Both the position numbers and the translations under genes were made by a program. Source: Hyphomicrobiales bacterium (lineage in GTDB: Bacteria > Pseudomonadota > Alphaproteobacteria > Rhizobiales > Rhizobiaceae). Taken from it: DNA of 64,000 bases. Location: assembly GCA_900468625.1 (NCBI GenBank), contig UBUL01000001.1, forward strand, positions 25,324 through 89,323, written 5' to 3'. The stretch's first letter is position 1, and each line of letters opens with the position of its first letter. The notes below the pieces were generated by a model that had not been told where the DNA came from, did not search any database, and worked only from the letters and a program-made list of their open reading frames with translations. This document shows positions 7,586 through 39,954 of the stretch, one piece after another.

Positions 7586-9040
7586 ATGAGCACAGTCATC
7601 AAGGGTGGAACCATCGTCACGGCCGACCTGACCTATAAGGCCGACGTCAAGGTCGAAGGCGGCAGGATCGTCGAGATCGGGCAGAACCTCTCGGGCAACG
7701 AAGTGCTTGACGCTTCCGGTTGTTACGTCATGCCCGGCGGCATCGATCCGCATACGCATCTCGAAATGCCATTCATGGGCACCTATTCCTCCGACGATTT
7801 TGAAAGCGGCACGCGCGCAGCCCTTGCCGGCGGCACGACCATGGTGGTGGATTTCGCGCTCCCCTCGCCCGGCCAGTCGCTGCTCGAAGCGCTCACCATG
7901 TGGGACAACAAGTCCACCCGGGCGAATTGCGACTATTCCTTCCACATGGCGATCACCTGGTGGGGCGAACAGGTCTTCAACGAGATGGAAGCCGTCGTCC
8001 GTGACAAGGGCATCAATACCTTCAAGCACTTCATGGCCTATAAAGGCGCGCTGATGGTGGACGACGACGAAATGTTCTCCTCCTTCCAGCGCTGTGCCGA
8101 ACTCGGCGCTTTGCCGCTCGTCCATGCCGAAAACGGCGATGTGGTCGCGCAGATGCAGGCAAAGCTGCTGGCCGAAGGCAATAACGGACCGGAAGCGCAC
8201 GCTTACTCCCGCCCGGCCGAAGTCGAGGGCGAGGCAACGAACCGCGCCATCATGATCGCCGACATGGCAGGCTCGCCCGTCTATATCGTCCATACCTCCT
8301 GTGAACAGGCGCATGAAGCCATCCGCCGCGCCCGCCAGAAGGGCATGCGCGTCTATGGCGAGCCGCTGATCCAGCACCTGACGCTCGACGAAAGCGAATA
8401 TGCCAATCCGGATTGGGATCACGCCGCCCGCCGCGTCATGTCGCCGCCCTTCCGCAACAAGCAGCATCAGGACAGCCTCTGGGCCGGCCTCGCCTCCGGC
8501 TCGCTGCAGGTGGTCGCGACCGACCATTGCGCCTTCACGACCGAGCAGAAGCGCTTCGGCCTCAACGACTTCACCAAGATCCCGAACGGCACCGGCGGTC
8601 TTGAGGATCGCATGCCGATGCTCTGGACCTACGGCGTCAATACCGGCCGCCTGACGATGAACGAATTCGTCGCCGTCACCTCGACCAACATCGCCAAGAT
8701 CCTCAACGTCTATCCGAAGAAAGGCGCGATCCTCGTCGGCGCCGATGCCGATATCGTCGTTTGGGACCCGAAGCGCTCGAAGACCATCGCCGCCAAGACT
8801 CAGCAGTCGGCGATCGACTACAACGTCTTCGAAGGCAAGGAAGTCACCGGCCTGCCGCGCTATACGCTGACGCGCGGCGTCGTCGCCATCGAGGAAGGCA
8901 CGATCAAAACGAAAGAAGGCCATGGCGAGTTCGTCAGGCGCGACCCGTTCACCGCTGCCAACCGCGCGCTTTCCACCTGGAAAGAAGTCACCGCGCCGCG
9001 CAAGGTGCAGCGCAGCGGCATCCCCGCAAGCGGGGTATGA
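7586..9040 (+). CDS. hydA: Dihydropyrimidinase (hydantoinase)
   Basis: Opens the ring of dihydrouracil and dihydrothymine to N-carbamoyl-beta-amino acids, the middle step of the reductive pathway. This cyclic amidohydrolase has the full binuclear metal site: H56 and H58 in DPHTH, the lysine to be carbamylated in MAYKG (K153), H181 in VHAENGD, H237 in VHTSCE and D314 in ATDHC. The length of 484 residues is normal. The ATG at 7586 follows GGGAACAG. It is separated from the amidohydrolase gene by a RIME-like repeat, so the two may share a transcript through a folded spacer. A second type of small repeat starts 35 bases after the stop codon. Confidence 0.95.
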   Translation: MSTVIKGGTIVTADLTYKADVKVEGGRIVEIGQNLSGNEVLDASGCYVMPGGIDPHTHLEMPFMGTYSSDDFESGTRAALAGGTTMVVDFALPSPGQSLLEALTMWDNKSTRANCDYSFHMAITWWGEQVFNEMEAVVRDKGINTFKHFMAYKGALMVDDDEMFSSFQRCAELGALPLVHAENGDVVAQMQAKLLAEGNNGPEAHAYSRPAEVEGEATNRAIMIADMAGSPVYIVHTSCEQAHEAIRRARQKGMRVYGEPLIQHLTLDESEYANPDWDHAARRVMSPPFRNKQHQDSLWAGLASGSLQVVATDHCAFTTEQKRFGLNDFTKIPNGTGGLEDRMPMLWTYGVNTGRLTMNEFVAVTSTNIAKILNVYPKKGAILVGADADIVVWDPKRSKTIAAKTQQSAIDYNVFEGKEVTGLPRYTLTRGVVAIEEGTIKTKEGHGEFVRRDPFTAANRALSTWKEVTAPRKVQRSGIPASGV

Positions 9041-9074
9041 CGCTTGGGCACGGCGCTTCGGCTCATCGGCCGCC

Positions 9075-9178
9075 TAGAGCAATTCCAGGAAAAATGCGTA
9101 GCGGTTTTCCGTCCGGAATTGCGAGAAAATAAAGAGATAGAGCATTTTCGCGATTCGAAGAAAAGCGAAACGGCGCTA
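9075..9178. repeat. Small dispersed repeat, family A, copy 1
   Basis: A roughly 100-base element made of two successive stem-loops. The first is framed by AATTCC and GGAATT. The second pairs TAGAGCATTTTCGC with a GCGAA-containing arm. Its left end is TAGAGCAATTCC. Its right end reads CTAG and contains the stop codon of the minus-strand cupin gene (9176-9178). Other copies are at 19612, 25038 and 56809, with a decayed one near 22060. Confidence 0.85.
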
Positions 9179-9589
9179 GCGCGGCACATACCGCTCCAGA
9201 TCCGGCAGCAGGACCACGCTTTCCTGCTCGTTCGGATCGGTGCGGGCGATGACCGCTGTCGCCGGCCGATCGCTGAGGTTGGCGGGAAGATGCGGAACGC
9301 CAGCCGGGATATAGAACATCTCGCCCTCGCGCACGATGACGTGCTCCTCCAGACGCTCGCCGAACCAGCAATGCGTCTCGCCGGAGATCGCGTAGATCGC
9401 CGTCTCATGCGAGGCGTGAAGATGCGCCTTGGCGCGGGCGCCCGGCGGAATGGTCAAAAGATGCATGCAGATCCCCGTCGAACCCACTGTCTCGGCGGCA
9501 ATCCCTTCGAAATAATTGAGGCCCTGTTTTCCGGCATAGGTGCTGCCGGGCCGCACGACACGGCAGGTGGGCTTCGATGAGACACTCAT
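9176..9589 (-). CDS. Small cupin-domain protein
   Basis: A single-domain cupin of 137 residues. The metal-binding cupin motifs are visible: AHLHASHETAIYAISGE (His, His, Glu) and later FYIPAGVPHLPAN (His). ATG 9589 is chosen because GGGGAG lies 8 bases upstream and the protein begins MSVSSKPTCRVV; an upstream extension of the frame has low-complexity, non-conserved content. The gene lies on the minus strand between dihydropyrimidinase and the importer genes, so it is not in their operon. The TAG stop falls in the right end of a dispersed repeat. The substrate is unknown. Small cupins of this kind are often sugar or organic-acid binding or isomerising proteins; I cannot assign one here. Confidence 0.8.
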   Translation of the reverse strand: MSVSSKPTCRVVRPGSTYAGKQGLNYFEGIAAETVGSTGICMHLLTIPPGARAKAHLHASHETAIYAISGETHCWFGERLEEHVIVREGEMFYIPAGVPHLPANLSDRPATAVIARTDPNEQESVVLLPDLERYVPR

Positions 9590-9713
9590 GGCATTGCTCC
9601 CCTCTGTCCAGCAGCCACAAGGCGTCCTCGCCTCTTCGGACTGCGGCAATGCCAAACAGAATAACACGCAATCCGCCCCAACCATGCGGCGAAAACAGGA
9701 CTGGTAGGTGTTA

Positions 9714-10505
9714 ATGACGTCATCCGCTTCCTCCGTCGTCTCCGCGCGGAATCTCTGTCTCACCTACAATACGAACGACGGGCCGGTGCATGCGCTGAGC
9801 AATGTCGATCTCGATGTGCGCAAGGGTGATTTCGTCTCCTTCATCGGCCCTTCTGGCTGCGGCAAGACCACTTTCCTGCGCGTCATCGCCGATCTCGAGC
9901 GCAAGACATCGGGCGACATCAGCGTCAACGGCATGTCGCCGGAAGACGCCCGCAAGGCTCGCGCCTATGGCTATGTCTTCCAGGCCGCAGCCCTTTATCC
10001 CTGGCGCACCATCGAGAAGAACATCGCGCTGCCGCTTGAGATCATGGGCTATGACAGGCAAGAGCAGGCCAAGCGCATCGCCCGGACTCTGGAGCTGGTC
10101 AATCTCAACGGCTTCGAACACAAGTTTCCCTGGCAGCTTTCCGGCGGCATGCAGCAGCGCGCCTCGATCGCCCGTGCTCTGGCCTTCGATGCCGATCTGC
10201 TGCTGATGGACGAGCCCTTCGGCGCGCTTGACGAAATCGTCCGCGACCACTTGAACGAGCAGCTTCTGAAGCTGTGGAAGCAGACGAACAAGACTATCTG
10301 CTTCGTCACCCACTCCATACCGGAGGCCGTCTATCTGTCGACCAAGATCGTGGTCATGTCGCCGCGGCCAGGCCGCGTCACCGATGTCATCGAATCGACG
10401 CTTCCGGCAGAGCGGCCGCTCGGCATTCGCGAAACGCCGGAGTTCCTGGAAATTGCCCACCGTGTCCGGGAAGGCTTGCGGGCCGGACATAGCTACGAGG
10501 AATAG
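9714..10505 (+). CDS. ABC importer ATPase of the nitrate/taurine/thiamine-precursor type
   Basis: The ATP-hydrolysing subunit of the importer formed with the two permeases and binding protein downstream. It has Walker A GPSGCGKTT (residues 45-53), signature LSGGMQQRAS, Walker B LLLMDEPFGALD and the switch His in THS. The sequence is closest to SsuB/TauB/ThiZ-class ATPases. ATG 9714 is chosen, with GGTAGG upstream; a GTG two codons earlier is possible. The following genes are closely spaced (10515, 10853, 11737, 12927), forming an operon. The pyrimidine-catabolic genes beside it suggest a pyrimidine-like substrate, but the sequence alone does not fix this. Confidence 0.92.
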   Translation: MTSSASSVVSARNLCLTYNTNDGPVHALSNVDLDVRKGDFVSFIGPSGCGKTTFLRVIADLERKTSGDISVNGMSPEDARKARAYGYVFQAAALYPWRTIEKNIALPLEIMGYDRQEQAKRIARTLELVNLNGFEHKFPWQLSGGMQQRASIARALAFDADLLLMDEPFGALDEIVRDHLNEQLLKLWKQTNKTICFVTHSIPEAVYLSTKIVVMSPRPGRVTDVIESTLPAERPLGIRETPEFLEIAHRVREGLRAGHSYEE

Positions 10506-22221: not shown

Positions 22222-23934
22222 TCAGAAGAGGAAATAGCGCTGTGCCATAGGCAGCACCGTCGCCGGTTCGCAGGTCAGAAGCTCTCCATCGGCACGCACT
22301 TCGTAGGTTTCCGGGTCCACCTCGATGTGCGGCGTCAGGCTGTTGTGGATCATCGACGCCTTGGAGATGCCGCCGCGCGTGTTCCTGACGGGCAGCAGCG
22401 TCTTGGCGACCCCGAGTTTGCCGGCAAGTCCGGCATCGAATGCAGCCTGGGAAACGAACGTCACGGAGGAATTCGTCCGGTTCTTTCCGAAGGCGCCGAA
22501 CATCGGCCGGTAATGCATAGGCTGCGGCGTCGGGATCGACGCATTCGGGTCGCCCATGGGCGCTGCCGCGATGGAGCCGCCAAGCAGAACCATCTCCGGC
22601 TTCACGCCGAAAAATGCCGGATTCCAGAGAACCAGATCGGCGCGCTTGCCGACCTCGATCGAGCCGATCTGATGGCTGACGCCGTGCGCAATCGCCGGAT
22701 TGATCGTGTATTTGGCAATATAGCGCTTCACGCGGAAATTGTCGTTGTCGCCGATTTCCTGGGCCAGGCGGCCACGCTGGCGCTTCATTTTGTCGGCGGT
22801 CTGCCATGTACGGATCGCCACTTCGCCGACACGGCCCATGGCCTGGCTGTCGGATGAAATGATCGAGAAGGCGCCGATGTCGTGGAGAATATCCTCGGCA
22901 GCAATCGTTTCCTTGCGGATACGGCTTTCGGCGAAGGCGATATCCTCGGGAATCGAAGGCGATAGATGGTGGCAGACCATCAGCATGTCGAGATGTTCGG
23001 CGATCGTATTAACCGTATAGGGCCGCGTCGGATTGGTCGAAGACGGAATGACGTTCGACTGACCGCAGATCTTGATGATGTCGGGCGCGTGTCCACCGCC
23101 TGCGCCTTCCGTGTGAAACGCGTGGATCGTGCGACCCTTGATGGCACCGATCGTATCCTCCACGAAGCCGCTTTCATTCAACGTATCCGTGTGGATCATC
23201 ACCTGAACGTCGTATTCGTCGGCAACGCTGAGGCAGCAGTCGATCGCCGCCGGTGTGGTGCCCCAATCCTCATGCAGCTTGAGCGCACAGGCACCGCCGA
23301 GCACCATCTCTTCCAGAGCGGCCGGCAAGGACGCATTGCCCTTGCCGGAAAGGCCGATATTCATGGGAAAGGCATCGAAGGATTCGATCATGCGCGCCAG
23401 ATGCCAAGGTCCCGGCGTGCAGGTCGTTGCCAGCGTCCCATGCGCCGGCCCAGTGCCGCCGCCGAGCATGGTGGTGATACCGGACATCAGGGCTTCTTCG
23501 ATCTGCTGCGGGCAGATGAAATGGATGTGGCTGTCCATGCCGCCGGCGGTCACGATCTTGCCTTCGCCTGCGATCGCCTCCGTGCCAGGCCCGACGATGA
23601 TATTGATATTGGGCTGCATATCCGGATTGCCGGCCTTGCCGATGGCGACGATGCGGCCGTCCTTCAGCCCGATATCCGCTTTGACGATCCCCCAGTGATC
23701 GAGGATCAACGCATTGGTGATGACGGTATCGACCGCTCCGGCAGCCCGCGTCACCTGGCTTTGCCCCATGCCATCGCGAATGACCTTGCCCCCGCCGAAC
23801 TTCACTTCCTCGCCATAGGCGGTGAAATCCTTCTCCACTTCGATGAACAATTCGGTGTCGGCCAGACGGACCTTATCGCCAACGGTCGGTCCGAACATGT
23901 TGGCATAGGCGGCACGGGAAATCTTGTAGGGCAT
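22222..23934 (-). CDS. ureC: Urease alpha (catalytic) subunit
   Basis: The catalytic subunit of urease, which hydrolyses urea to ammonia and carbamate. All nickel and active-site residues are present: H136 and H138 in DSHIHF, the lysine to be carbamylated in [10 protein letters not shown] (K219) with H221, H248 in MIHTDT, H274 in [13 protein letters not shown], the flap Cys-His-His in VCHHLSPS (about 320-322) and the Asp in SSDSQAMGR. The length of 570 residues is standard. The start lies 3 bases after the stop of the GT29-like gene, so translation is probably coupled. The gene is intact and very likely active. Confidence 0.98.
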
Positions 23935-25716: not shown

Positions 25717-26019
25717 TCACCGGATCGGTTCATGGACGGTGACGAGCTTGGTGCCGTCAGGGAATGTCGCCTCGACCTGAACGTCATGGATCATCTCGGC
25801 AATGCCTTCCATCACCTGCTCGCGGGTGATGACATGGGCACCAGCCTCCATCAGCTCGGCGACCGGGCGGCCGTCGCGCGCGCCTTCGACCACGAAATCC
25901 GTGATCAGCGCGATGGCTTCAGGATGATTGAGCTTGACGCCCCGCTCCAGCCGCCGCCGCGCCACCATCGCCGCCATGGAAATCAGCAGCTTGTCTTTTT
26001 CTCTCGGAGTGAGGTTCAT
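25717..26019 (-). CDS. ureA: Urease gamma subunit
   Basis: A 100-residue structural subunit of urease with the standard start [27 protein letters not shown], the [19 protein letters not shown] block and the [21 protein letters not shown] end. It forms the (UreABC)3 complex with the beta and alpha subunits encoded downstream. It follows ureD by 31 bases and precedes the DUF1272 gene by 7 bases on the same strand. Confidence 0.98.
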
Positions 26020-27140: not shown

Positions 27141-27836
27141 TCAAACCGTCAGGTGCCTGCGGGCCTCCGGTGTGTCCAGTGTCTCTGCCAGCCCCTCGTG
27201 CACGATCTCGCCGCGATCCATGATGTAGACGTAGTCGGCAAGTTCGCGGCAGAAATCGAGATATTGCTCGACCAGCAGGATCGCCATGCCGGTGGAATCC
27301 CTGAGATAGCGGATTGCCCGGCCGATATCCTTGATGATCGACGGCTGGATGCCCTCGGTCGGCTCGTCCAGGACCAGTATCTTCGGCCTGGTTACCATCG
27401 CCCGCCCAATCGCCAGCTGCTGCTGCTGGCCGCCCGAGAGATCGCCGCCGCGGCGCGACAGCATCGATTTCAGCACCGGAAACAGACTGTAGATGTCATC
27501 AGGAATAGTGCGGTCGCGGCGCGAAAGCGGAGCGTAACCGGTTTCGAGATTCTCCTTCACGGTCAGGAGCGGAAAGATCTCGCGCCCCTGCGGCACGTAG
27601 CCGATGCCCTGTTTGGCGCGCGCGAACGGCGCCATGCCGTTCAGCATCACGCCGTTGAAGGCAATCGTACCCGCCGACAAGGCATGCTGTCCCGTGACAG
27701 CGCGCAGGAGCGAGCTTTTGCCGACGCCATTGCGCCCGAGGACACAGGTGATCTTGCCCATCTCCGCCTTGATGGAGATCCCCCGCAGCGCCTGGGCGGC
27801 GCCGTAATGCAGGTTTGCGTTTTCGACTGTCAGCAT
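27141..27836 (-). CDS. urtE: Urea ABC transporter ATPase UrtE
   Basis: One of two ATPases of the five-part urea importer, of the LivF type, 231 residues. It has Walker A GRNGVGKSS, signature LSGGQQQQLAIGRA and Walker B ILVLDEPTEGIQPS; the last stretch (EPTEGIQPSII) is typical of UrtE rather than amino-acid LivF. ATG 27836 is chosen for the start MLTVENANLHYG; an upstream extension of nine residues is possible. It is the last gene of urtABCDE. A RIME-like repeat fills the gap from urtD. Confidence 0.95.
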   Translation of the reverse strand: MLTVENANLHYGAAQALRGISIKAEMGKITCVLGRNGVGKSSLLRAVTGQHALSAGTIAFNGVMLNGMAPFARAKQGIGYVPQGREIFPLLTVKENLETGYAPLSRRDRTIPDDIYSLFPVLKSMLSRRGGDLSGGQQQQLAIGRAMVTRPKILVLDEPTEGIQPSIIKDIGRAIRYLRDSTGMAILLVEQYLDFCRELADYVYIMDRGEIVHEGLAETLDTPEARRHLTV

Positions 27837-27864
27837 GGCTTCATCTTCTTTCTGTTCCCTCAAG

Positions 27865-28028: not shown

Positions 28029-28784
28029 CTACCGCCCCAGATAATTCTCGATCACCTTTGGATCGCTGCTGACGAAATCGATCGAGCCCTCCGCCAGAAC
28101 CGATCCCTCCGCCAGGCATGTCACCTTAACGCCGAGATCGCGGATGAAACCCATATCGTGCTCGACCACGACGACCGAACGCGTCTTCGCAATCTCCTTC
28201 AACAGCACCGCCGTTTCCGCCGTCTCCGCATCCGTCATGCCCGCCACCGGCTCATCGACCAAGAGTAGCTTCGGTTCCTGCGCGAGCAACATCCCGATCT
28301 CAAGCCACTGCTTCTGACCATGGGAAAGATTGGCCGCCAGTTCTTCCCGCCGATGCGACAACCGCACCGTCTCGAGGATTTCCTTGATGCGATCGCGATC
28401 GATTGGCGTCAGGCGATAGAAGAGCGTCGAAAAGACACCGCGGCTGCGGTTGAGCGCCAATTCGAGATTGTCCCAGACGGTGTGGCTTTCGAAGACGGTC
28501 GGCTTCTGGAATTTCCGGCCGATGCCGAGCTGGGCGATGTCAGCCTCGTCCTTCTTGGTCAGATCGATCTGGCCATTGAAGAATACCTCTCCCTCGTCGG
28601 GTCGGGTCTTGCCGGTGATGATGTCCATCATCGTCGTCTTGCCCGCGCCATTCGGGCCGATGATGGCGCGAAGCTCGCCCGGCTCGATAACGATCGACAG
28701 CGAATTCAAAGCCTTGAAGCCATCGAAGGATACCGAGACATTGTTGAGATAAAGCATGCTGTTGGGTTTGATGTCGGGGATCAT
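28029..28784 (-). CDS. urtD: Urea ABC transporter ATPase UrtD
   Basis: The second ATPase of the urea importer, LivG type, 251 residues. It has Walker [33 protein letters not shown] (the FQKP region is characteristic of UrtD), signature LSHGQKQWLEIG and Walker B LLLVDEPVAGMTDAET, where GMT-type wording is again typical of urea systems. Start MIPDIKPNSMLYL at 28784 is favoured; an ATG ten codons in is also possible. It lies 4 bases after the urtC stop, so it is coupled to it. The spacer to urtE holds a RIME-like repeat. Confidence 0.95.
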   Translation of the reverse strand: MIPDIKPNSMLYLNNVSVSFDGFKALNSLSIVIEPGELRAIIGPNGAGKTTMMDIITGKTRPDEGEVFFNGQIDLTKKDEADIAQLGIGRKFQKPTVFESHTVWDNLELALNRSRGVFSTLFYRLTPIDRDRIKEILETVRLSHRREELAANLSHGQKQWLEIGMLLAQEPKLLLVDEPVAGMTDAETAETAVLLKEIAKTRSVVVVEHDMGFIRDLGVKVTCLAEGSVLAEGSIDFVSSDPKVIENYLGR

Positions 28785-28788
28785 GGTC

Positions 28789-29949
28789 CTACTCCGCGGC
28801 CTGTACCGACTGCTGATCGTCATCCTTCGCAGCCTCCGCCGGCGGCTTTGCAGGCACGCGCTTTTTGCCAAAGTATTGTGCGATGGTGCCGACGATGCCC
28901 TTCGGCAGGAACAGCGTCACCGCAATAAACAGACCGCCAAGCGCAAACAGCCAGAAATCGGGAAACAGGCCGGTGAAGATGGTCTTGCCGCCATTGACCA
29001 GGATGGCGCCGATGATCGGCCCGATCAGGGTGGCGCGGCCGCCAACGGCTGTCCAGATGACGACTTCGATCGAATTGGCGGGCGCGAATTCTCCTGGATT
29101 GATGATGCCGATCTGCGGCACGTAGAGCGCGCCGGCAATGCCCGCCATCATGGCCGATACGACGAAGACGAACAGCTTCATATGCTCGACGCGATAGCCG
29201 AGAAAGCGCGTGCGGCTTTCGGCATCGCGCACGCCCACAAGCACCTTGCCGAACTTCGAACGGACAATGGCCGAGGATAGCATCAGCGCCAGCGCCAGGA
29301 ATACCGCCGTCGTGGCAAAGAGCACGGCACGCGTGCCATCGGCCTGGATGTTGAAGCCGAGAATGTCCTTGAAGTCCGTCAGGCCGTTATTGCCGCCGAA
29401 ACCCATGTCGTTGCGGAAGAAGGCAAGCAGCAACGCATAGGTCATGGCCTGCGTGATGATCGACAGATAGACGCCGTTGACGCGCGAGCGGAAGGCAAAC
29501 CAGCCGAAAACGAAGGCCAGCAGGCCGGGTGCCGCAAGCACCATGAGCATGGCGAACCAGAACTGATCGAAGCCGTACCAGAACCAAGGCAGCTCCTTCC
29601 AGTTCAGGAAGACCATGAAATCCGGCAGGATCGGATTGCCGTAGGTGCCGCGCGAGCCAATCTGCCGCATCAGATACATGCCCATGGCATAGCCACCGAG
29701 CGCGAAGAAGGCTCCGTGGCCGAGCGAAAGAATGCCGCAATAGCCCCAAACGAGATCGAGCGCCAGGGCGAGCAGGGCATAGGTCAGATACTTGCCGAAC
29801 AGCGACATGAGATAGGTGGGTACATGCAATGCGCTCGTTTCCGGCAAGGCCAGATTGGCGAGCGGCACCAGCACCGCGACGGCAAGAAGGAGCGCGATGG
29901 CGATGCTGATCCGGCGGTCGAGCGCGCGGAGGATAAAGGCCGTGATCAT
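28789..29949 (-). CDS. urtC: Urea ABC transporter permease UrtC
   Basis: A LivM-type inner-membrane permease of 386 residues with about ten hydrophobic helices. Conserved stretches include DLVWGYCGILSLGHGAFFALGGYAMGMYLMR and the PGEFAPANSIEVVIWTAVGGRATLIGPIIGA block. The C-terminal cytoplasmic tail is Lys- and Ala-rich. The start overlaps the urtB stop by four bases. It forms the membrane channel with UrtB. Confidence 0.96.
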   Translation of the reverse strand: MITAFILRALDRRISIAIALLLAVAVLVPLANLALPETSALHVPTYLMSLFGKYLTYALLALALDLVWGYCGILSLGHGAFFALGGYAMGMYLMRQIGSRGTYGNPILPDFMVFLNWKELPWFWYGFDQFWFAMLMVLAAPGLLAFVFGWFAFRSRVNGVYLSIITQAMTYALLLAFFRNDMGFGGNNGLTDFKDILGFNIQADGTRAVLFATTAVFLALALMLSSAIVRSKFGKVLVGVRDAESRTRFLGYRVEHMKLFVFVVSAMMAGIAGALYVPQIGIINPGEFAPANSIEVVIWTAVGGRATLIGPIIGAILVNGGKTIFTGLFPDFWLFALGGLFIAVTLFLPKGIVGTIAQYFGKKRVPAKPPAEAAKDDDQQSVQAAE

Positions 29950-31571
29950 GCTTCCACCGCCCTTCCCTTGAGCGCGAAGAGGCCGCGCGGACGTTTCTGG
30001 ATGAAGAGGATAATGAGGACGAGAACGAGGATCTTGCCGAGCACTGCCCCCGCATAGGGTTCGAGGAACTTGTTGAGAATGCCGAGCGAGAAGGCGCCGA
30101 CCAGCGTCCCCCAGAGATTGCCGACGCCGCCGAACACCACGACCATGAAGCTGTCGATGATGTAGCTCTGACCAAGGTTCGGCGAGACGTTATCGATCTG
30201 CGAGAGCGCGACGCCTGCCATCCCGGCGATGCCGGATCCGAGCGCGAAAGTAAAAGCATCGACCCAGGACGTGCGGATCCCCATCGAGGAGGCCATGCGC
30301 CGGTTCTGCGTCACCGCGCGCATCTGCAGGCCGAAGGCCGAGCGCTTCAAAAGAAGCAGGAGCGCGACAAACACGCCGAGCGCAAAGACGATGATCCAGA
30401 GGCGGTTCCAGGTGATCGAGAGATAGCCGAAATCGAAGGAACCCGACATCCATGAGGGATTGCCGACCTCCTGATTGGTCGGCCCGAAGATCGAACGCAC
30501 CGCCTGCTGCAAGATCAATGAGATGCCCCAGGTGGCGAGCAGCGTCTCCAGCGGCCTGCCATAAAGAAAGCGGATGACGCCGCGCTCGATAACGAGGCCG
30601 ACGGCCCCGGTGACGATGAAGGCGACCGGCAGGGCGATCGCCAGCGACCAGTCGAACAGTTCGGGATAGGATGTGCGGATGATGCTTTGAACGACGAAAG
30701 TAGAATAGGCGCCGAGCATCACCATCTCGCCATGCGCCATGTTGATGATGCCCATGACGCCGAAGGTAATCGCAAGGCCGATGGCGGCCAGCAGCAGTAC
30801 GGAGCCGAGCGACAGGCCGTACCACACGTTCTGCACCGCATCCCAGATCTTCAACTGCTCCTGTATGCCGGCGACGGCGGCAGCGACATCTGGCTTGAGG
30901 CTCTGGTCCACGGAAACCGAGGAGAGAATGCCGATCGCATCCCGACCGCCTTCGACCTTGATCGTTTCGATCGCTGCCTTCTTGTCTTCCATCGGGCGAT
31001 CCGAGCCAAGTATGGCAACGGCTCTCGCGCGCTCGAGCACGCCCCGGACCTCTCCGTCCTTCTCGCTCTGCAGCGCCGTCTCGACGGCTTCGAGCGAATC
31101 CGCACTCGGCGCCTTCAAAATGGATTGCGCCGCCGAAAGCCGCGTCGCGCGATCCGGGCTCATCAGCGTCAGACCGCCGAGAGCCGCGCGAACCGCACGG
31201 CGCAGATTGTTGTTGATCTTGATCTTGCCGAGATTGTCCTTGGCTTCCCGACCGGCCGCCTGCCCGGTCAAGGGGTCCACCAGATCCATCATGTCGCCGG
31301 AGGATTTGGCGATAAAGACCTGATTGTCGGATTTTCTTATGTAAAGATCGCCGTCGGAAAAGGCCTGCAATGCAGGCACCACCTTCGGATCGCCCGTCTT
31401 GGCAAGGGCTTGAACGATATCGCCGGCCTTCTGGAAATTGGCCTGGCCGAGGGAATTGATCAGGCCGTGGGCGTCCTCCTGGGCGCGCAGGCTCGTCGCG
31501 GTCAACGCCAGCACCAGACAGAAGCCGGCGACCAGCGCCAAGGCCATACGGTAAACGAATTTATCGAACAT
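29946..31571 (-). CDS. urtB: Urea ABC transporter permease UrtB
   Basis: A LivH-type permease of 541 residues, much longer than amino-acid LivH proteins. The extra N-terminal half has a signal-type hydrophobic segment (residues about 8-30) and a helical, probably periplasmic region of some 220 residues (for example GDPKVVPALQAF, VRAALGGLTLMSPD), as is normal for proteobacterial UrtB. The permease domain starts near residue 240 with YGLSLGSVLLLAAIGLAITFGVMGIINMAHGEMVMLGAY. It overlaps urtC by four bases. A perfect stem-loop separates it from urtA. Confidence 0.96.
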   Translation of the reverse strand: MFDKFVYRMALALVAGFCLVLALTATSLRAQEDAHGLINSLGQANFQKAGDIVQALAKTGDPKVVPALQAFSDGDLYIRKSDNQVFIAKSSGDMMDLVDPLTGQAAGREAKDNLGKIKINNNLRRAVRAALGGLTLMSPDRATRLSAAQSILKAPSADSLEAVETALQSEKDGEVRGVLERARAVAILGSDRPMEDKKAAIETIKVEGGRDAIGILSSVSVDQSLKPDVAAAVAGIQEQLKIWDAVQNVWYGLSLGSVLLLAAIGLAITFGVMGIINMAHGEMVMLGAYSTFVVQSIIRTSYPELFDWSLAIALPVAFIVTGAVGLVIERGVIRFLYGRPLETLLATWGISLILQQAVRSIFGPTNQEVGNPSWMSGSFDFGYLSITWNRLWIIVFALGVFVALLLLLKRSAFGLQMRAVTQNRRMASSMGIRTSWVDAFTFALGSGIAGMAGVALSQIDNVSPNLGQSYIIDSFMVVVFGGVGNLWGTLVGAFSLGILNKFLEPYAGAVLGKILVLVLIILFIQKRPRGLFALKGRAVEA

Positions 31572-31637: not shown

Positions 31638-32927
31638 TCAGGAACCCTTGCCGCCGCACTTGCCGGTGGTGACGTTGAAGTTGCCGCAGTTCATCGGCAT
31701 GCGCCAATCCGAGATCAGGTCCTTACTGTCGGGCAGGTAATCGGACCATTCCTTGCCGACCACGGCAGGGGTTTGCGAAACGACATCGAACTGGCCGTTT
31801 TCCTGCACTTCGCCGATGAGGACCGGCTTGGTGATGTAATGGTTCGGCATCATGGTAGCGGTGCCGCCGGTGAGGTTCGGAACGGAAACGCCGACGAGCG
31901 CGTCGATGACCTTGTCCGGATCGGTCGTGCCGGCCTTCTCGACGGCCTTCACCCACATGTTGAAGCCGATATAGGCGGCTTCCATCGGGTCGTTGGTGAC
32001 GCGCTTGTCGTTCTTGGTGTAGGCGTGCCATTCCTTGATGAAAGCAGCGTTGGCGGGCGTGTCGACGGACTGGAAGTAATTCCAGGCAGCGAGATGTCCG
32101 ACAAGCGGCTTGGTATCGACGCCGGCCAGCTCTTCTTCACCGACCGAGAAGGCGACGACCGGAATATCCTCGGCCTTGACGCCCTGGTTGCCCAGTTCCT
32201 TGTAGAAGGGAACATTGGCATCGCCATTGATTGTGGAGACGACCGCAGTCTTCTTGCCGGCCGCGCCGAAGGCCTTGATCTTGGAGACTTCCGTCTGCCA
32301 GTCGGAGAAGCCGAAGGGTGTGTAGTTGACGATGATGTCTTCGTCCTTGACACCCTTGGACTTCAGATAGGCCTCGAGGATCTTGTTGGTCGTGCGCGGA
32401 TAGACATAGTCCGTGCCTTCGAGCACCCAGCGCTGCACGCCTTCATTCTTCATCAGATAATCGACGGCCGGAATTGCCTGCTGGTTCGGAGCGGCTCCCG
32501 TATAGAAGACGTTGCGCTCCGACTCTTCGCCTTCGAACTGCACCGGATAGAACAGGATCGAATTCAGTTCCTTGAAGACGGGCAGCACCGACTTGCGCGA
32601 CACCGAGGTCCAGCAACCGAAGACGGCGGAGACCTTGTCCTTCTGGATCAGTTCGCGGGCCTTTTCGGCAAAGAGCGGCCAGTTGGAGGCCGGGTCGACG
32701 ACGACGGGCTCGAGCTTCTTGCCGAGGACGCCGCCCTTTTTGTTCTGCTCGTCGATGAGCATCAGCATGGCGTCCTTCAGCGTCGTTTCCGAGATCGCCA
32801 TGGTGCCGGAAAGCGAATGCAGGACGCCGACCTTGATGGTGTCGTCGGCGGCAAACGCGCCGTGGAATGCGGTGGTTGACATGATGGCGCCAAGCAGCGC
32901 GCCGGAGACGAAAGTCTTGAATTTCAT
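31638..32927 (-). CDS. urtA: Urea ABC transporter periplasmic binding protein UrtA
   Basis: The urea-binding subunit, 429 residues with a signal peptide (MKFKTFVSGALLG up to AFA). The mature part starts DDTIKVGVLHSLSGTMAISETTLKDA, the classic UrtA/AmiC-like pattern. FGCWTSVSRKSVLPVFKELNSILFYPVQFEGEE and the C-terminal GNF/CGG region also fit UrtA. It is the first gene of urtABCDE. The upstream gap (32928-33156) is shared with the divergent NCS1-kinase gene and holds a TACGT-N6-ACGTA inverted repeat. Confidence 0.96.
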   Translation of the reverse strand: MKFKTFVSGALLGAIMSTTAFHGAFAADDTIKVGVLHSLSGTMAISETTLKDAMLMLIDEQNKKGGVLGKKLEPVVVDPASNWPLFAEKARELIQKDKVSAVFGCWTSVSRKSVLPVFKELNSILFYPVQFEGEESERNVFYTGAAPNQQAIPAVDYLMKNEGVQRWVLEGTDYVYPRTTNKILEAYLKSKGVKDEDIIVNYTPFGFSDWQTEVSKIKAFGAAGKKTAVVSTINGDANVPFYKELGNQGVKAEDIPVVAFSVGEEELAGVDTKPLVGHLAAWNYFQSVDTPANAAFIKEWHAYTKNDKRVTNDPMEAAYIGFNMWVKAVEKAGTTDPDKVIDALVGVSVPNLTGGTATMMPNHYITKPVLIGEVQENGQFDVVSQTPAVVGKEWSDYLPDSKDLISDWRMPMNCGNFNVTTGKCGGKGS

Positions 32928-33021: not shown

Positions 33022-33037
33022 TACGTAAAACGACGTA
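33022..33037. promoter_or_regulatory. TACGT-N6-ACGTA inverted repeat between urtA and the sensor kinase
   Basis: A perfect 5-base inverted repeat spaced by 6 bases (AAAACG), centred about 100 bases from urtA and 125 from the kinase gene. LuxR/NarL-type regulators often bind short inverted repeats of this sort, so it is a candidate site for the regulator at 36533-37456. No sigma-54 (GG-N10-GC) promoter was recognised in this gap. Confidence 0.4.
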
Positions 33038-33156: not shown

Positions 33157-36100
33157 ATGGCGGCGCGGCAACGCATCATTCCGGTAAGGCGCGAATATAA
33201 TCGCTGGGTCGCGAACCAGACGCTGGAAGACTACGCCCTGCGTTTCACCGCCAAGAGCGCCCGGCAATTTTCATCGCAACGCATCTCGCAGACCGCGATC
33301 GGCGCTATTTCCTTCCTGGCGCTGGAGGCGATCGGCGGCACGATCACGCTTTCCTACGGCACGACCAACGCATTCTACGCCATCATCGTCGCCAGCCTCG
33401 TCATGCTGGCCGTGGGCCTGCCGATCAGCCGATATGCCATCCGCCATGGCGTCGATATCGATCTGCTGACACGGGGCGCGAGCTTCGGCTATATCGGCTC
33501 GACCGTCACCTCGCTGATCTATGCCAGCTTCACCTTCATGCTCTTTGCGATCGAAGCCTCGATCATGTCCGGCGCGCTAGAGCTGACGCTCGGCATACCC
33601 GTTTGGATCGGCTACATCATCAGTGCCGTGATGGTGATCCCGCTCGTGACGCACGGTGTGCGCCTCATCAGCCGGTTCCAGTTGCTGACGCAACCCTTCT
33701 GGATCGTTCTCAACATCCTCCCTTTCGCCTTTATCGCCTTTGCAGATTGGGGAAAATTCGATCTCTGGCGGGCCTTCGCCGGTATCCATCATCCTGCAAG
33801 CGCGCCGGGCACAGCCGCCCCTTTCGATCTGGTAGAATTCGGCGCGGCTTCGGCCGTCATCCTGGCGCTGATGTCGCAGATCGGCGAACAGGCCGACTTC
33901 CTGCGCTTCCTGCCGCCGGACGGCCACCGCAAATGGCGCCATCGCCTGGCCATCTTCCTGGCCGGGCCGGGATGGGTCATCATCGGCGCGCCGAAGCTGC
34001 TCGCCGGCTCATTTCTCGTCGTTCTGACGCTGACCTCAGGCGTAGGTCGCGCCGCCGATCCCGCACAGATGTATCTGACCGCCTTCGGCTATATGATCCC
34101 CTGGCACAATGCCGCGCTGCTTTTGATGGCTGCCTTCGTGATGATCTCGCAACTGAAGATCAACGTCATGAACGCCTATGCCGGCTCGCTCGCCTGGTCG
34201 AACTTCTTTTCGCGGCTGACACACAGTCACCCGGGCCGCGTCATCTGGCTGGTCTTCAATGTCACCATCGCGCTTTTGTTGATGGAACTCGGCATCTATC
34301 GGCTGCTGGAGGAGACGCTCGGCATCTTCTCGATCATCGCCATGGCCTGGCTCTGCACCGTTTCCGCCGATCTTTTCATCAACAAGCCGCTGGGGCTTGC
34401 CCCTCCCGGCATCGAATTCAAGCGCGCGCATCTCTACGACATCAATCCGGTTGGCCTTGGTGCCATGGCGCTTTCGGCAACCATCGCTCTCATCGCGCAT
34501 TTCGGCGTCTTCGGCTCGATTGCCGCATCGCTTGCACCCTATGTCACCCTGATCGTGGCATTCATCGCCTCGCCCGCCATCGCCTGGGCCACAAAGGGCA
34601 AATATTATCTCGCCCGCAAGCCACGGCAGAGCTGGAAGAACCTGACGACCATTACCTGCTCCGTTTGCGAACATCCGTTCGAGCCGGAGGACATGGCCTG
34701 GTGCCCAGCCTATGCCGCGCCGATCTGCTCGCTCTGCTGTTCGCTCGACAGCCGCTGCCACGACATGTGCAAGCCGAAGGCTCGGCTCAATACGCAGGTC
34801 GCCACCGTCGCAAAGACCCTGCTTCCTGAAAGTATCGTTGCCAAACTTGCAACGCGCCTCGGCCGCTACGGCATTGCCGTTGCCTTGGCGCTGACCGCCA
34901 TGGGTGCGATCCTGGCGATGATCGCGCATCAGGTCGGCGCCGCCTCGCCCGAGACCGCATCGGTGGTCGACCGCACCATCCTGATCGTCTTCTTCGTCTT
35001 TGCCGTGATCGCCGGCGTCGCCTGCTGGTTCTATGTGCTTGCCCATGACAGCCGTGTGGTCGCCGAGGAGGAATCCTCGCGCCAGAACACGCTGCTCCTG
35101 AAGGAGATCGCCGCCCACAAGAAGACGGACGCCGCCCTGCAGGGTGCCAAGGAGGCGGCAGAGGCGGCAAACCGCGCCAAGAGCCGCTATGTCGTGGGCC
35201 TCAGCCACGAATTGCGCACGCCGCTCAATGCCGTGCTCGGCTATGCGCAGATATTGGAACGCGACGAGACCATTCCGGCACCCCGGCAATCCTCCCTGAA
35301 GGTGATCCGCCGCAGCGCCGAGCATCTTTCCGGCCTGATCGACGGGCTTCTCGATATTTCCAAGATCGAGGCCGGCCGCCTGCAGGTCTATTCCAACGAG
35401 ATCAACATCCAGGATTTCCTCGACCAGATCGTCGACATGTTCCACCCCCAGGCACAAGCCAAGGGCCTGACTTTCATCCATGAGCGTGCCGCCGCCCTAC
35501 CCGACTATGTCCGCACCGACGAGAAGCGGCTGCGTCAGATCCTCGTCAACCTGCTTTCCAACGCCATCAAGTTCACCGATGCGGGCACCGTTCGCTTCGA
35601 GGTGGGTTACAGAAACCAGGTCGCGACTTTCACCGTTGCAGACACCGGCCGCGGCATCGCGGCAAAGGACATCACCCGCATCTATGAGCCTTTCCAGCGC
35701 GGCGAAGCCGATAGCATCAGACCGATGCCGGGCCTCGGCCTCGGCCTCACCATCACGCAGCTGCTGACCAATACGCTCGGTGGCGAGATTTCGGTCACCA
35801 GCGAGAAAGACGTGGGCTCAACCTTCAAGGTACGCCTGATGCTGTCGGCCGTAATCCGGCCTATGAAACCGCCGGCGCAGGAACAGCGTATCGTCGGCTA
35901 CGAAGACCCACGCCGCACCATCGTCGTCGTCGACGACAATGAAGATCATCGCGAGCTGATGCGCGAAATCCTGTCGCCGCTCGATTTCATCGTCCTGACC
36001 GCCGCCGGCGGTCCCGATTGCCTGACGCTGATCGAAGGCATCAAGCCGGATCTTTTCCTGGTCGATATTTCCATGCCCGGCATGAATGGCTGGCAACTCG

Positions 36101-36531
36101 TCTCGCGGCTCAGGGAAAATGGCCAGACGGCGCCGATCGTCATGCTGTCCGCCAATATCGGCGACGCTGCGGCCGCGACCGACAGCGACGACAGCCACAG
36201 CGACGCCATCGCCAAGCCGGTCGACATCCGTCAGCTTCGCGACAAGCTCGCCCTGCATCTCGGGCTGAAATGGATTTACGCCGATGCGTCCGCGCCGGTT
36301 GCGCCAAAACCGCCCCCACCGTTGAAAAGCCCGGGGATAGAGCATATCCGCGAACTGATCCGGCTCGGCGAGATCGGCTATGTCAGGGGCATGGAGGCAA
36401 AGCTTGCCGATCTGGCCAAGCTCGACGAGAACAAGCCCTTCACCGACGCCTTGCGTACCCATGTGCAGGCATTCGATCTCGACGGCTTCCTGAACGTGCT
36501 GCACGCCTTCGATACTGAAAAGGTTGAATAG
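33157..36531 (+). CDS. NCS1 permease-hybrid histidine kinase fusion
   Basis: A 1124-residue fusion. Residues about 20-490 form a twelve-helix transporter-like region of the nucleobase:cation symporter-1 type (start NRWVANQTLEDYALRFTAK; SAVILALMSQIGEQADFLRFLP). A Cys-rich segment follows at about 499-540 with nine Cys (CSVCEHPF, CSLCCSLDSRCHDMC). Two further membrane helices lie around 570-635. Then come a histidine kinase with H684 in SHELRTPLNA, N-box NLLSNAIKF at about 798, DTGRGI and GLGLGLTI, and a receiver with D926/D927, acceptor D970 and K1020. The last 60 residues are an unclassified helical domain. The design recalls CbrA-type SLC5-kinase sensors. It is divergent from urtA and adjoins a LuxR-type regulator gene. 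The ligand is inferred to be urea, allantoin, hydantoin or a nucleobase. Confidence 0.9.
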   Translation: MAARQRIIPVRREYNRWVANQTLEDYALRFTAKSARQFSSQRISQTAIGAISFLALEAIGGTITLSYGTTNAFYAIIVASLVMLAVGLPISRYAIRHGVDIDLLTRGASFGYIGSTVTSLIYASFTFMLFAIEASIMSGALELTLGIPVWIGYIISAVMVIPLVTHGVRLISRFQLLTQPFWIVLNILPFAFIAFADWGKFDLWRAFAGIHHPASAPGTAAPFDLVEFGAASAVILALMSQIGEQADFLRFLPPDGHRKWRHRLAIFLAGPGWVIIGAPKLLAGSFLVVLTLTSGVGRAADPAQMYLTAFGYMIPWHNAALLLMAAFVMISQLKINVMNAYAGSLAWSNFFSRLTHSHPGRVIWLVFNVTIALLLMELGIYRLLEETLGIFSIIAMAWLCTVSADLFINKPLGLAPPGIEFKRAHLYDINPVGLGAMALSATIALIAHFGVFGSIAASLAPYVTLIVAFIASPAIAWATKGKYYLARKPRQSWKNLTTITCSVCEHPFEPEDMAWCPAYAAPICSLCCSLDSRCHDMCKPKARLNTQVATVAKTLLPESIVAKLATRLGRYGIAVALALTAMGAILAMIAHQVGAASPETASVVDRTILIVFFVFAVIAGVACWFYVLAHDSRVVAEEESSRQNTLLLKEIAAHKKTDAALQGAKEAAEAANRAKSRYVVGLSHELRTPLNAVLGYAQILERDETIPAPRQSSLKVIRRSAEHLSGLIDGLLDISKIEAGRLQVYSNEINIQDFLDQIVDMFHPQAQAKGLTFIHERAAALPDYVRTDEKRLRQILVNLLSNAIKFTDAGTVRFEVGYRNQVATFTVADTGRGIAAKDITRIYEPFQRGEADSIRPMPGLGLGLTITQLLTNTLGGEISVTSEKDVGSTFKVRLMLSAVIRPMKPPAQEQRIVGYEDPRRTIVVVDDNEDHRELMREILSPLDFIVLTAAGGPDCLTLIEGIKPDLFLVDISMPGMNGWQLVSRLRENGQTAPIVMLSANIGDAAAATDSDDSHSDAIAKPVDIRQLRDKLALHLGLKWIYADASAPVAPKPPPPLKSPGIEHIRELIRLGEIGYVRGMEAKLADLAKLDENKPFTDALRTHVQAFDLDGFLNVLHAFDTEKVE

Positions 36532-36532
36532 A

Positions 36533-37456
36533 TTGGCTGAGCTTACCCATCCCCGCGACATAGTCTTGCTGGTGGACGATTCGCCCGAGGCGCTCGGCTT
36601 CCTCACGGACGCGCTCGAACAGTCCGGCTTCTCGGTTCTGATCGCCACGTCCGGATCGGCGGCTTTGAACATCGTCGAGCGCATTACGCCGGATCTCATT
36701 CTGCTCGATGCCGTCATGCCGTCCATGGACGGGTTTGAGACCTGCCGCCGGCTGAAGGCCAATGCCGGCATCGCCCAGATTCCGGTCGTCTTCATGACCG
36801 GGCTTACCGAAACCGAGCATGTGGTGCATGCGCTTGAGTCCGGCGGCGTCGATTACCTCACCAAGCCGATCAATGTCGATGAACTGCGCGCCCGCATCCG
36901 CGTCCACTTGCGCAATGCCCGCTCCGCCCAGAGCGCGAGAGTGGCGCTCGATGCTGCGGGCCGTCATCTCCTGGCGGTCAAGGGCGATGGCGCCATCCAT
37001 TGGTCGACACCCCAGGCAACCCGTCTCATCAACGCCGCCACCGGCAGCGACGACGGCCTCGATCTCGCCTCGAAACACATTGCCGCCTTCATGCTGGAAC
37101 GTGAACGGCTCGGCCCCGCTCGCGACAATCTTCTTTCCATGAACAATGGCGGTCAGGCAGCGCTGCAGTTCACCTTTCTCGGCGCCATCGGAGCCGACGA
37201 ATATCTCTTTCGCCTGACAGCCACCAGTCGGCGCGCCGACGACGGCGTTCTGCGTCAGCATTTCTCTCTGACGCAGCGCGAATCCGAGGTGCTGCTATGG
37301 CTCGCCAAGGGCAAATCCAACCGCGACATCGGCGAGATCCTCGGCCTGTCCGCCCGCACCGTGAACAAGCACCTGGAGCAGATCTACGTGAAACTGGGCG
37401 TTGAAAATCGGGCTTCCGCCGCCGTCAAGGCAGCGCATGTTCTGCACGAGGTGTAG
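36533..37456 (+). CDS. LuxR/NarL-family response regulator, partner of the NCS1-kinase
   Basis: A response regulator of about 307 residues: an N-terminal receiver with acidic LVDDSPE, acceptor Asp in LILLDAVMPSMDG (about D59) and Lys in LTKPIN; a middle region of about 100 residues with no clear family; and a C-terminal LuxR-type helix-turn-helix (LTQRESEVLLWLAKGKSNRDIGEILGLSARTVNKHLEQIYVKL). It starts with TTG, either 36533 (AAGG 9 bases upstream) or 36524, which overlaps the kinase stop codon. The overlap or close spacing means it is coupled to the kinase gene and is its likely phosphorylation partner. Targets are inferred to include urt/ure and the TACGT repeat at 33022. Confidence 0.9.
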   Translation: MAELTHPRDIVLLVDDSPEALGFLTDALEQSGFSVLIATSGSAALNIVERITPDLILLDAVMPSMDGFETCRRLKANAGIAQIPVVFMTGLTETEHVVHALESGGVDYLTKPINVDELRARIRVHLRNARSAQSARVALDAAGRHLLAVKGDGAIHWSTPQATRLINAATGSDDGLDLASKHIAAFMLERERLGPARDNLLSMNNGGQAALQFTFLGAIGADEYLFRLTATSRRADDGVLRQHFSLTQRESEVLLWLAKGKSNRDIGEILGLSARTVNKHLEQIYVKLGVENRASAAVKAAHVLHEV

Positions 37457-37497: not shown

Positions 37498-38469
37498 CTA
37501 GGCAACCCGATCCGGCGGCGCTTGTCCGGCAAAGAAGGCAATGACGTTGTCGGCCACTTTCATGCCCATGGCGGTGCGCGTCTCTTCCGTGGCGCTGCCG
37601 AGATGCGGCAGGAGCACGACATTGTCCATCGCCCGCAACCGCTCGGGAATATTGGGTTCCGCCTCATAGACGTCGAGGCCGGCGCCGCGGATCTTTCCCT
37701 GCTCCAGCGCCGAAATCAGCGCCGCCTCATCGACGACATCGCCCCTCGCCGTGTTGATCAGGAAGGCGCCGGGCTTCATGGCCGCGAAACGGGCTGCATT
37801 CATCAGATGGCGGTTCCCGGCGCCACCAGGGCAGTGCAAGGAGACGAAGTCAGAGATTTCGAGAACGTCCTCTATCCTCTGCAACTGCACGGCGCCATAG
37901 CGCGCGGCTTCCATCGGATCGATAGCCGAGCGATTGTGGAAAACGACGTCCATGCCGAAACCGAAATGACAGCGCTGCGCGAATGCGCGGCCGATACGGC
38001 CGAAGCCGATGATGCCGACGGTCTTGCCGGTGACTTTGGTGCCGACGAGATGCGTCGGCCGCCAGCCGCTCCACGCGCCGGCCCTTAGCTCGCGCTCCCC
38101 CTCGCCGCTGCGGCGCGCGGCGGAAAGAAGGAGCAGCATGGCGAGGTCGGCCGTGCAGTCGGTCAAAACGCCCGGCGTGTTGGTGACGACCACGCCCTTT
38201 TCCCTGGCAGCCGCGATGTCGATGTGATTGAAGCCGACGCCGAAATTGCCGAGAATCTTCGTTCGGATCGTTTGGCCCTCGAAAAGCGCGGCCGGAAGCT
38301 TGTCGGAGACGGTCGGCAGAACCGCGTCATAGATGTGCAGCGCCTCGCGCAGCTGAGCCGCGTCGAGGGCCGTGTCATCCTTGTTCAGCGTGGTGTCGAA
38401 ACGCTCCGAAAGCACTGTCTCGACCGCCGCCGGCCAGCGCCGGGTAACGAGAATACGGGGTTTGCTCAT
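37498..38469 (-). CDS. D-isomer 2-hydroxyacid dehydrogenase (glyoxylate/hydroxypyruvate reductase-like)
   Basis: A 323-residue NAD(P)-dependent enzyme reducing a 2-oxoacid such as glyoxylate or hydroxypyruvate. The Rossmann motif is GKTVGIIGFGRIGRAFA (GxGxxG). Catalytic residues are visible: Arg in INTARGDVVDE, Glu in LDVYEAEPNIPE and His in LLPHLGSATEETR. ATG 38469 is preceded by AGGAG at 8 bases; a frame extension upstream is rejected. The gene is convergent with the response regulator gene and lies downstream of the bra genes on the same strand, but a terminator at 38582-38605 separates them. The exact substrate is not decided by sequence. Confidence 0.92.
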   Translation of the reverse strand: MSKPRILVTRRWPAAVETVLSERFDTTLNKDDTALDAAQLREALHIYDAVLPTVSDKLPAALFEGQTIRTKILGNFGVGFNHIDIAAAREKGVVVTNTPGVLTDCTADLAMLLLLSAARRSGEGERELRAGAWSGWRPTHLVGTKVTGKTVGIIGFGRIGRAFAQRCHFGFGMDVVFHNRSAIDPMEAARYGAVQLQRIEDVLEISDFVSLHCPGGAGNRHLMNAARFAAMKPGAFLINTARGDVVDEAALISALEQGKIRGAGLDVYEAEPNIPERLRAMDNVVLLPHLGSATEETRTAMGMKVADNVIAFFAGQAPPDRVA

Positions 38470-38581
38470 GCTGTCATTCTCCTGCCGATACACTGCTGGC
38501 GATACAGGGGCAGACTTAAAGCAGCTCCGGCAGGAAAGAAATGGCGAACCGCTTTCGCGGACATGAAAATGGCCCGAACGG

Positions 38582-38605
38582 AAAAGCCCGGCCAACGGCC
38601 GGGCT
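38582..38605 (-). terminator. Intrinsic terminator of the bra operon
   Basis: On the minus strand, AGCCCGGCC and GGCCGGGCT pair around GTT and are followed by TTTTC. It lies about 45 bases after the braC stop codon. Confidence 0.85.
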
Positions 38606-38648: not shown

Positions 38649-39770
38649 TTACTTCGAGATTTCAGCGTAGTTGTACTTGCCGTCGGAACCCTTGGACCAC
38701 TTGTACATGACGTAGTCCGGACGGGTAATGTCGCCCTTGGCGTTGAAGCCGAGGTCGCCGATAGCGGTCTTGAACGGACCCTTTGCCTTGATTGCGTCGG
38801 CAACGGCCATCGGATCGTTGGAACCGGCAGCCTTGGCGGCGGCGGCGATGACCTGCAGAGCCGAGTAGGAGTAGAGCGTGTAGCCTTCCGGCTCGTAGCC
38901 GGCAGCGCGGAATTTGGCAACGAGATCGGCGGAAGCCGGGTTCTTGCGCGGGTCCGGAGCGAAGGTCATCAGCGTGCCGTCGACGGCGTCGCCGGCGATG
39001 GAGGCCAGCTCGTTCGAGACGATACCGTCACCCGACATGAAGTGAGCCTTCACACCCTGGTCGGCCATCTGGCGCATGATGAGGCCGGCTTCCGTATGCA
39101 GGCCGCCGTAATAGACGAAGTCGACGCCAGCCTGCTTCATCTTGGAGATCAGGGCCGAATAGTCCTTGTCGCCGGGGGTGATGCCTTCATAAAGAACTTC
39201 CTTCATGCCGTCGGCATTGAGGTTCTTCTTGGTTTCGTCAGCCAAGCCCTGACCATAAGGCGTCTTGTCGTGAACGATGGCAACCTTGGCGCCCTTGAAA
39301 TTGTCGGCGATATACTTGCCGGCAACCTCGCCCTGCTGGTCGTCACGGCCGCAGGTGCGGAAGGTGTTCCACAGGCCGCGTTCGGTGAACTTCGGGTTGG
39401 TCGAGGCGGGAGTGATCTGCAGGATGCCGTTTTCAGCGTAGACTTCCGAGGCCGGAATGGAAACGCCGGAGTTGAAGTGACCGACAACGAACTTCACGCC
39501 GTCGGCAACGAACTTGTTCGCGACCGAAACGCCCTGCTTGGCATCGGAGACGTCGTCGCCGAGTTCGATCTTGATCTTTTCCCCATTGATGCCGCCGGCC
39601 GCGTTGATGTCGGCAGCTGCCTGCTCTGCACCCTTCTGAAGCTGCGAGCCAAACGCAGCGTTCGGGCCGGTCAACGGACCGCCAACGCCAACAATGATGT
39701 CTGCCTTGGCAACGCCGCCGAAAGCGATCATCGCCGACAAAGCCACCGCCGACAGAAGATACTTCTTCAT
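38649..39770 (-). CDS. braC: Branched-chain/broad amino-acid ABC transporter binding protein
   Basis: A LivJ/BraC-type periplasmic protein of 373 residues. The signal peptide is [23 protein letters not shown]. The mature part starts [33 protein letters not shown], with conserved [19 protein letters not shown], the [14 protein letters not shown] block and [23 protein letters not shown] lies 7 bases before ATG 39770. It follows the ATPases and permeases encoded upstream on the same strand, the order braDEFG-orf-braC seen in rhizobia. The rhizobial Bra system takes up many amino acids. A terminator follows. Confidence 0.95.
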
Positions 39771-39954
39771 ATTATTACTCCCAATTTTTGAGCGGGTTCC
39801 GTTTGATCTGCCCTGCGCGATACCCACCAATCATCACGCCGGCAACGCTTGCATTCCGAATTCTGGAAGCATGACCCGGCCCGTTCCCGTCTGCTTTTTA
39901 TGGGCTGGGTGACGCTTGGTTGTACGAGAGACTGTGCCTAGTTTGGGCGCACTG

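Follow-up and report, generated by a model that had tools for sequence, protein, structure and literature searches.

The window, a stretch of 64,000 nucleotides from a Hyphomicrobiales bacterium, carries on its plus strand a sensor gene (33157..36531) whose product of 1124 aa joins transport-like and signalling modules. An NCS1-related transporter domain (33184..34605; aa 10-483, about 12 TM helices) is followed by a Cys-rich linker (34657..34770; aa 501-538), two further TM helices (34855..35031; about aa 567-625), a HisKA plus HATPase_c kinase (35179..35844; HisKA 675-740 with His684, HATPase_c 787-896) and a receiver domain (35920..36249; aa 922-1031, with Asp970). The last 90 residues of the sensor matched no Pfam family. 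The 3' end of the gene overlaps by 8 bp with a plus-strand gene for a LuxR-type response regulator (36524..37456; REC 14-126 with Asp62, GerE 248-303), which is the natural partner of the sensor; the middle part of this regulator (i.e. 36902-37264 of the window, about aa 127-247) matched no Pfam family at E<=5. Divergent from the sensor, and all on the minus strand, are urtA for the urea ABC substrate-binding protein (31638..32927; TIGR03407), urtB (29946..31571; TIGR03409), urtC (28789..29949; TIGR03408), urtD (28029..28871; TIGR03411), urtE (27141..27863; TIGR03410), ureA for the urease gamma subunit (25717..26019; NF009712, TIGR00193) and ureC for the urease alpha subunit (22222..23934; TIGR01792), each of which passed its NCBIfam cut-off. 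The spacer of 229 bp between urtA and the sensor gene contains a palindrome, TACGTAAAACGACGTA (33022..33037; TACGY-N6-RCGTA), which is a predicted operator. UrtB of the window has about 245 extra N-terminal residues ahead of the part matched by TIGR03409. After the sensor-regulator pair, on the opposite strand, are genes for a 2-hydroxyacid dehydrogenase (37498-38595) and a branched-chain amino-acid-type binding protein (38649-39830), both of which recur near the sensor at many Rhizobium loci.

An initial annotation, made from the letters of the DNA, had described the protein as an NCS1-like transporter fused to a hybrid histidine kinase, and this was confirmed by domain profiles, the predicted model and profile comparison. 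The modelled membrane domain has a complete NCS1-type fold (i.e. the LeuT-type fold of Mhp1 and CodB). In hhalign the transporter domain gave 94.6% for NCS1 versus 0.2% for SSF, with a comparison set of 13 SSF sequences, and 0.1% for APC; a bridge protein also tied the domain to NCS1 by sequence. The PF02133 cut-off was not reached by the single sensor sequence and TIGR00800 was absent among the matches listed for the sensor (25 of 151 families), so the domain is named NCS1-related, a divergent branch as judged from sequence, and not an NCS1 transporter. Membership of the SLC5/STAC histidine kinases by way of an SSF domain was ruled out by the 0.2% probability. The same genome has one separate NCS1 gene that PF02133 does recognise (5e-76; G000:C24:123365-124648). 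For the signalling part, conservation was measured over 70 members of the family: His684 and N802 were each present in 70/70, D829 was invariant and Asp970 was found in 68/70, with a gap in the remaining two rows. The protein and its neighbour thus have the features of a hybrid histidine kinase within a two-component system, namely the HisKA His, the ATPase N and G boxes, the receiver Asp and a partner regulator.

The distribution of the sensor was examined at three scales. Counting the genome of the window each time, matches were obtained in 27 of 385 genomes of the class, where G138 qualified solely through a weak match (25%) to a shorter protein, and in 54 of 398 genomes of the phylum Proteobacteria, where a few matches were partial or weak. 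A contig search provided a rhizobial set, i.e. the best 80 loci, from Rhizobium, Agrobacterium and similar organisms, all of which matched over sensor residues 1 to 1118 or beyond. Urea uptake genes (urtA and urtB) and the regulator were near the sensor at 80/80 of these loci, upholding the link to a divergent urt importer drawn in the initial annotation; ure genes were seen at part of them, as the flanks end (ureC at 26/80, 'ureD' at 57/80). A further set comprised 64 fusion loci, each read with up to about 20 kb of context, all but 15 of the 60 phylum-search places being covered. NCBIfam models, scoring above cut-off, gave names to example neighbours (i.e. formamidase FmdA, FmdB, aliphatic amidase, urea carboxylase, allophanate hydrolase and the UrtA/UrtB-type importer), which then served as tblastn queries to assign the remaining loci. 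Urea genes (urt, ure or urea carboxylase) or short-amide genes (fmdDEF, fmdA or amiE) were in reach at 59/64 loci: 20 with urea genes only, 38 with amide genes only and one with both. No urea or amide reference gene was found within the context read (at most about 20 kb) at the other five (L122, L124, L125, L131 and L134), three of which (L122, L124 and L125) represent one genus and one of which (L134) is a partial hit. The adjoining LuxR-type regulator, also noted initially, was present at 62/64. The initial annotation had regarded conservation next to unrelated transport genes as a result that would count against it; the amide neighbourhood is chemically related, and its proposed ligand, 'urea or a related nitrogen compound', proved to have the right breadth, with formamide/acetamide genes at 39/64 loci, of which 38 had no urea genes in reach.

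Four genomes (G725, G605, G584 and G520) have two copies of the sensor each, one beside amide (fmd) genes and one beside ure/urt, forming natural specificity pairs. On a tree built quickly from 70 transporter domains, neighbour type required 4-5 changes as compared to shuffled means of 21.6-23.1, and the well-supported branches force 2-3 such changes; neighbour type therefore follows lineage, yet has switched more than once. A search of the own genome with FmdA detected no full-length FmdA-type formamidase, the single match covering 55 residues (E 2.9e-5), and as far as this search for FmdA goes urea is thus the likelier ligand in this organism.

The sensor and regulator probably constitute a CrbS/CrbR-like two-component system, in which the NCS1-type domain likely senses urea or a similar short amide and controls the neighbouring uptake operon through the LuxR-type regulator and the palindrome. 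Urea or a short amide would bind in the cavity of the NCS1-type domain and shift its helices, and this shift would be relayed by the Cys-rich linker and the two following helices to change kinase activity. The kinase would then hand its phosphate on to the LuxR-type regulator, and the phosphorylated regulator would occupy the palindrome and increase transcription of both the uptake genes and the sensor, acting as an activator and not a repressor. In its own organism the most likely target is urtABCDE, with the ure genes, downstream on that strand, as a possible additional target.

A different reading, to which we give a smaller though appreciable chance, is that the fusion is a working urea/amide permease (i.e. 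a transceptor) and that transport flux is sensed rather than mere occupancy. The completeness of the NCS1-type fold fits such an activity, as does the lysine aligned with the NCS1 sodium site (Lys334), since a Na2-site lysine is the mark of proton-coupled relatives, CbrA with its K196 among them (PMC13022988). Against transport, a urea/amide-type ABC importer is encoded near the sensor at most of the 64 loci and at all 80 rhizobial loci, and the kinase-fused ammonium transporter Ks-Amt5 is described as binding ammonium without translocating it (PMC5764959).

The region between transporter and kinase could support another alternative. All eight cysteines at 501-538 are invariant in 70/70 members, so the linker matters. 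When folded alone, this region gave a small piece of two strands and a helix, then two long helices, and structural matches to it were weak (best E 0.51, with RING/LIM/ZZ/PHD-like rows at E 1.4 and above); binding of zinc by the modelled linker would be a guess. The sensor might read some other signal, such as general nitrogen or energy state, the proton gradient, or redox or zinc via the linker, its control of urea and amide uptake being incidental, with the transporter domain serving as a coupling device and not as an amide receptor. The invariant Lys334 could read protons, and the ligand assignment of the sensor is itself a prediction. A chemical ligand better fits the association with four amide pathways (i.e. 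urease, urea carboxylase, formamidase and aliphatic amidase) and the four genomes in which one duplicate adjoins urea genes and the other amide genes, making this other-signal reading improbable.

Control of the uptake genes by the regulator is backed by the palindrome. Reading of divergent intergenic regions identified the common pattern TACGY-N6-RCGTA, which was then scored in 80 divergent pairs, 65 of 145 loci having been dropped as not divergent within 700 bp. An exact copy was present in 68/80 pairs, i.e. 42/44 with a true urtA, mostly one family and not independent, and 26/36 with an fmdD-type urtA, which are more diverse. Only 14 of 16,000 shuffled intergenic copies (0.09%) contained it. 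A spacing of 8 between TACG and CGTA was found in 70/80, and among spacings of 2-15 the sole other match was one at 4. Across 65 loci (1.23 Mb; the 64 sensor loci plus the sensor-less L215) there were 50 sites, none of them inside a reference-gene match. Sites preceded fmdA in L203, L209-L211, L213 and L214 and allophanate hydrolase in L128 and L129; L224 and L233 have one before a urtA that is not the divergent neighbour of the sensor. The exact palindrome was missing from 25/64 sensor loci (26/65 with L215), including 10 of 12 urea-linked loci outside the class of the window, and near matches with one or two changes were seen in some loci without it. In four genomes chosen for having no linkage, exact sites lay before the sensor itself (three genomes) and away from every urea or amide reference gene.

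No exact palindrome other than 33022-33037 was found in the window. The 6.3-Mb genome as a whole has four, of which only 33022-33037 is clearly in a promoter region; of the others, one lies inside an lgt-like ORF (L295), one overlaps a hydrolase-like ORF at its 3' end, near the end of the contig (L294), and one falls where a convergent ORF pair has its 3' ends (L296). As a control, urtA-type genes were taken from genomes in which no sensor was found, and 0/18 carried the palindrome upstream; 15 of these are close orthologues (64-86% identity) and for one of the other three (L312) only 85 bp upstream was read. The pattern did occur at one control locus (L300), elsewhere than upstream of urtA. 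This absence indicates that the site belongs with the sensor-regulator pair and not with urt as such, and backs at the sequence level the earlier suggestion that the sensor controls urt. From its position and symmetry, TACGY-N6-RCGTA is predicted to be bound by the LuxR-type regulator. The palindrome could instead be the site of another regulator (e.g. a nitrogen regulator), with the sensor-regulator pair acting elsewhere, as position and symmetry alone point to the regulator and the exact site is missing in 25/64 loci. We consider this still less probable than the other-signal reading, given the 18/18 sensor-less urtA-type genes without a site, the presence of the site before the sensor itself in L122, L124 and L125 where no urt was seen nearby, and the one clear promoter-region site in the own genome.

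Whether NCS1 substrate residues are kept, a question raised initially, has a partial answer: the residues found opposite the NCS1 substrate and sodium positions differ, yet Glu133 and Lys334 among them are invariant within the family. Mhp1 was aligned by hand on the printed letters, gap-free from the TM3 FG motif and around the first TM8 Asn. This placed Mhp1 W117 and Q121, which we take to be substrate residues, and S312 and T313, presumably sodium residues, opposite residues 129, 133, 334 and 335 of the window protein. At position 129, 54 of 70 members have Phe and the other 16, like the window protein, have Leu, and Glu occupies position 133 in 70/70, so the nucleobase/hydantoin site is not kept. 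Ten residues of the domain are invariant (E57, E133, Q241, E244, Q245, D247, Q332, K334, N336 and N339), with Lys at 334 and Asn at 336 and 339 again each found in 70/70. TM6 residues 229-238 of the window protein include no aromatic residue; Phe is present at 236 in 30/39 amide-linked members. Correlated residues at 129, 399 and 400 provided 2 to 4 independent pairs only, too few for a test. Opposite the NCS1 substrate positions the polar residues are invariant across urea-linked and amide-linked members, and a predicted cavity that is unlike the nucleobase site, polar and the same whichever genes adjoin fits one shared ligand group, its geometry being inferred. These changes make a nucleobase or hydantoin ligand less likely. 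A sensor of nucleobases, hydantoin or allantoin that merely neighbours urt, given that purine breakdown yields urea as an end product, would suit the NCS1 fold and the name 'purine-cytosine permease-like' given by some pipelines, but is very unlikely in view of the Phe/Leu and invariant Glu opposite W117 and Q121 and of identified neighbours that are amide and urea genes, with no purine gene recognised among recurrent neighbour clusters (most of which are without annotation).

Transporter-fused histidine kinases are of a known kind; the palindrome between uptake operon and sensor is new here. CrbS/CrbR, CbrA/CbrB and RpuS/RpuR (i.e. SLC5/STAC systems) likewise have a transporter-fold domain fused to a histidine kinase, and the LeuT-type fold is common to both groups. 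They differ in that the transporter part here is NCS1-related, the linker consists of an eight-Cys segment plus two TM helices and the predicted ligand is urea or an amide as compared to acetate, histidine or pyruvate. CrbS is reported to be a hybrid kinase with an SLC5 domain and a LuxR-type partner, CrbR, that serves acetate use (PMC5715377, PMC9100948), and CrbR is described as requiring an imperfect palindrome at target promoters (PMC5715377). Ks-Amt5 is similarly a nitrogen-compound transporter recruited as a kinase-fused sensor, differing in its Amt domain and in its ligand, ammonium. Compared to Mhp1 (hydantoin) and CodB (cytosine), the domain here is kinase-fused, with F/L, E and K as counterparts of Mhp1 W117, Q121 and S312. 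Amide-linked loci carry a gene set of the fmdCABDEF kind, which in Methylophilus methylotrophus encodes formamidase and an ABC importer for short amides/urea and is induced by formamide and urea (PMC10781810); such induction is what our model predicts for amide-linked loci, if a sensor of this type is present there. The main text of that review contains no histidine kinase or two-component term (PMC10781810).

Within the literature searched, no NCS1-fused kinase, no urea/amide sensor kinase of such a kind and no receptor kinase for external urea or short amides was described. UreR (AraC-type), AmiC/AmiR and the chemoreceptor TlpB respond to urea or short amides; these are receptors of the cytoplasm or of chemotaxis and lack the transporter-kinase fusion. 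Databases already reveal the domain pairing, since some annotation pipelines join 'histidine kinase' with 'purine-cytosine permease-like'. On balance we lean slightly towards an undescribed and widespread receptor-kinase class, in which an NCS1-type transporter, with an invariant Lys filling the sodium site and the base-stacking residue replaced, would now be a dedicated sensor of H2N-C=O compounds (urea, formamide, acetamide) with a private TACGTCA-NN-TGACGTA regulon and duplicates that split urea from amides. Urea is a major soil nitrogen source. If the proposal is correct, one more transporter family, beside SLC5 and Amt, would have been recruited as kinase input. Natural urea/amide paralogue pairs within one genome and a compact operator would make the transporter-to-receptor change and the discrimination of urea from formamide directly testable, with one target operon pair predicted in the own genome, and would supply parts for urea biosensors.

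Three loci depart from the usual arrangement. At L215 (G553:C40, about 8999-10333) the sensor domain has a stand-alone NCS1-type relative, with RINVMN replacing KINVMN, which lies directly before a gene that by eye resembles a nitrilase-type hydrolase; proteins of this type perhaps represent the transporter stock ancestral to the sensor. L206 (G460:C3) and L238 (G557:C2) encode short, non-hybrid members (open frames of 894 and 899 aa) that lack the C-terminal receiver, and neither locus has the LuxR partner. Both adjoin fmdA and other response-regulator-like genes, and represent a second way of wiring the same type of sensor.
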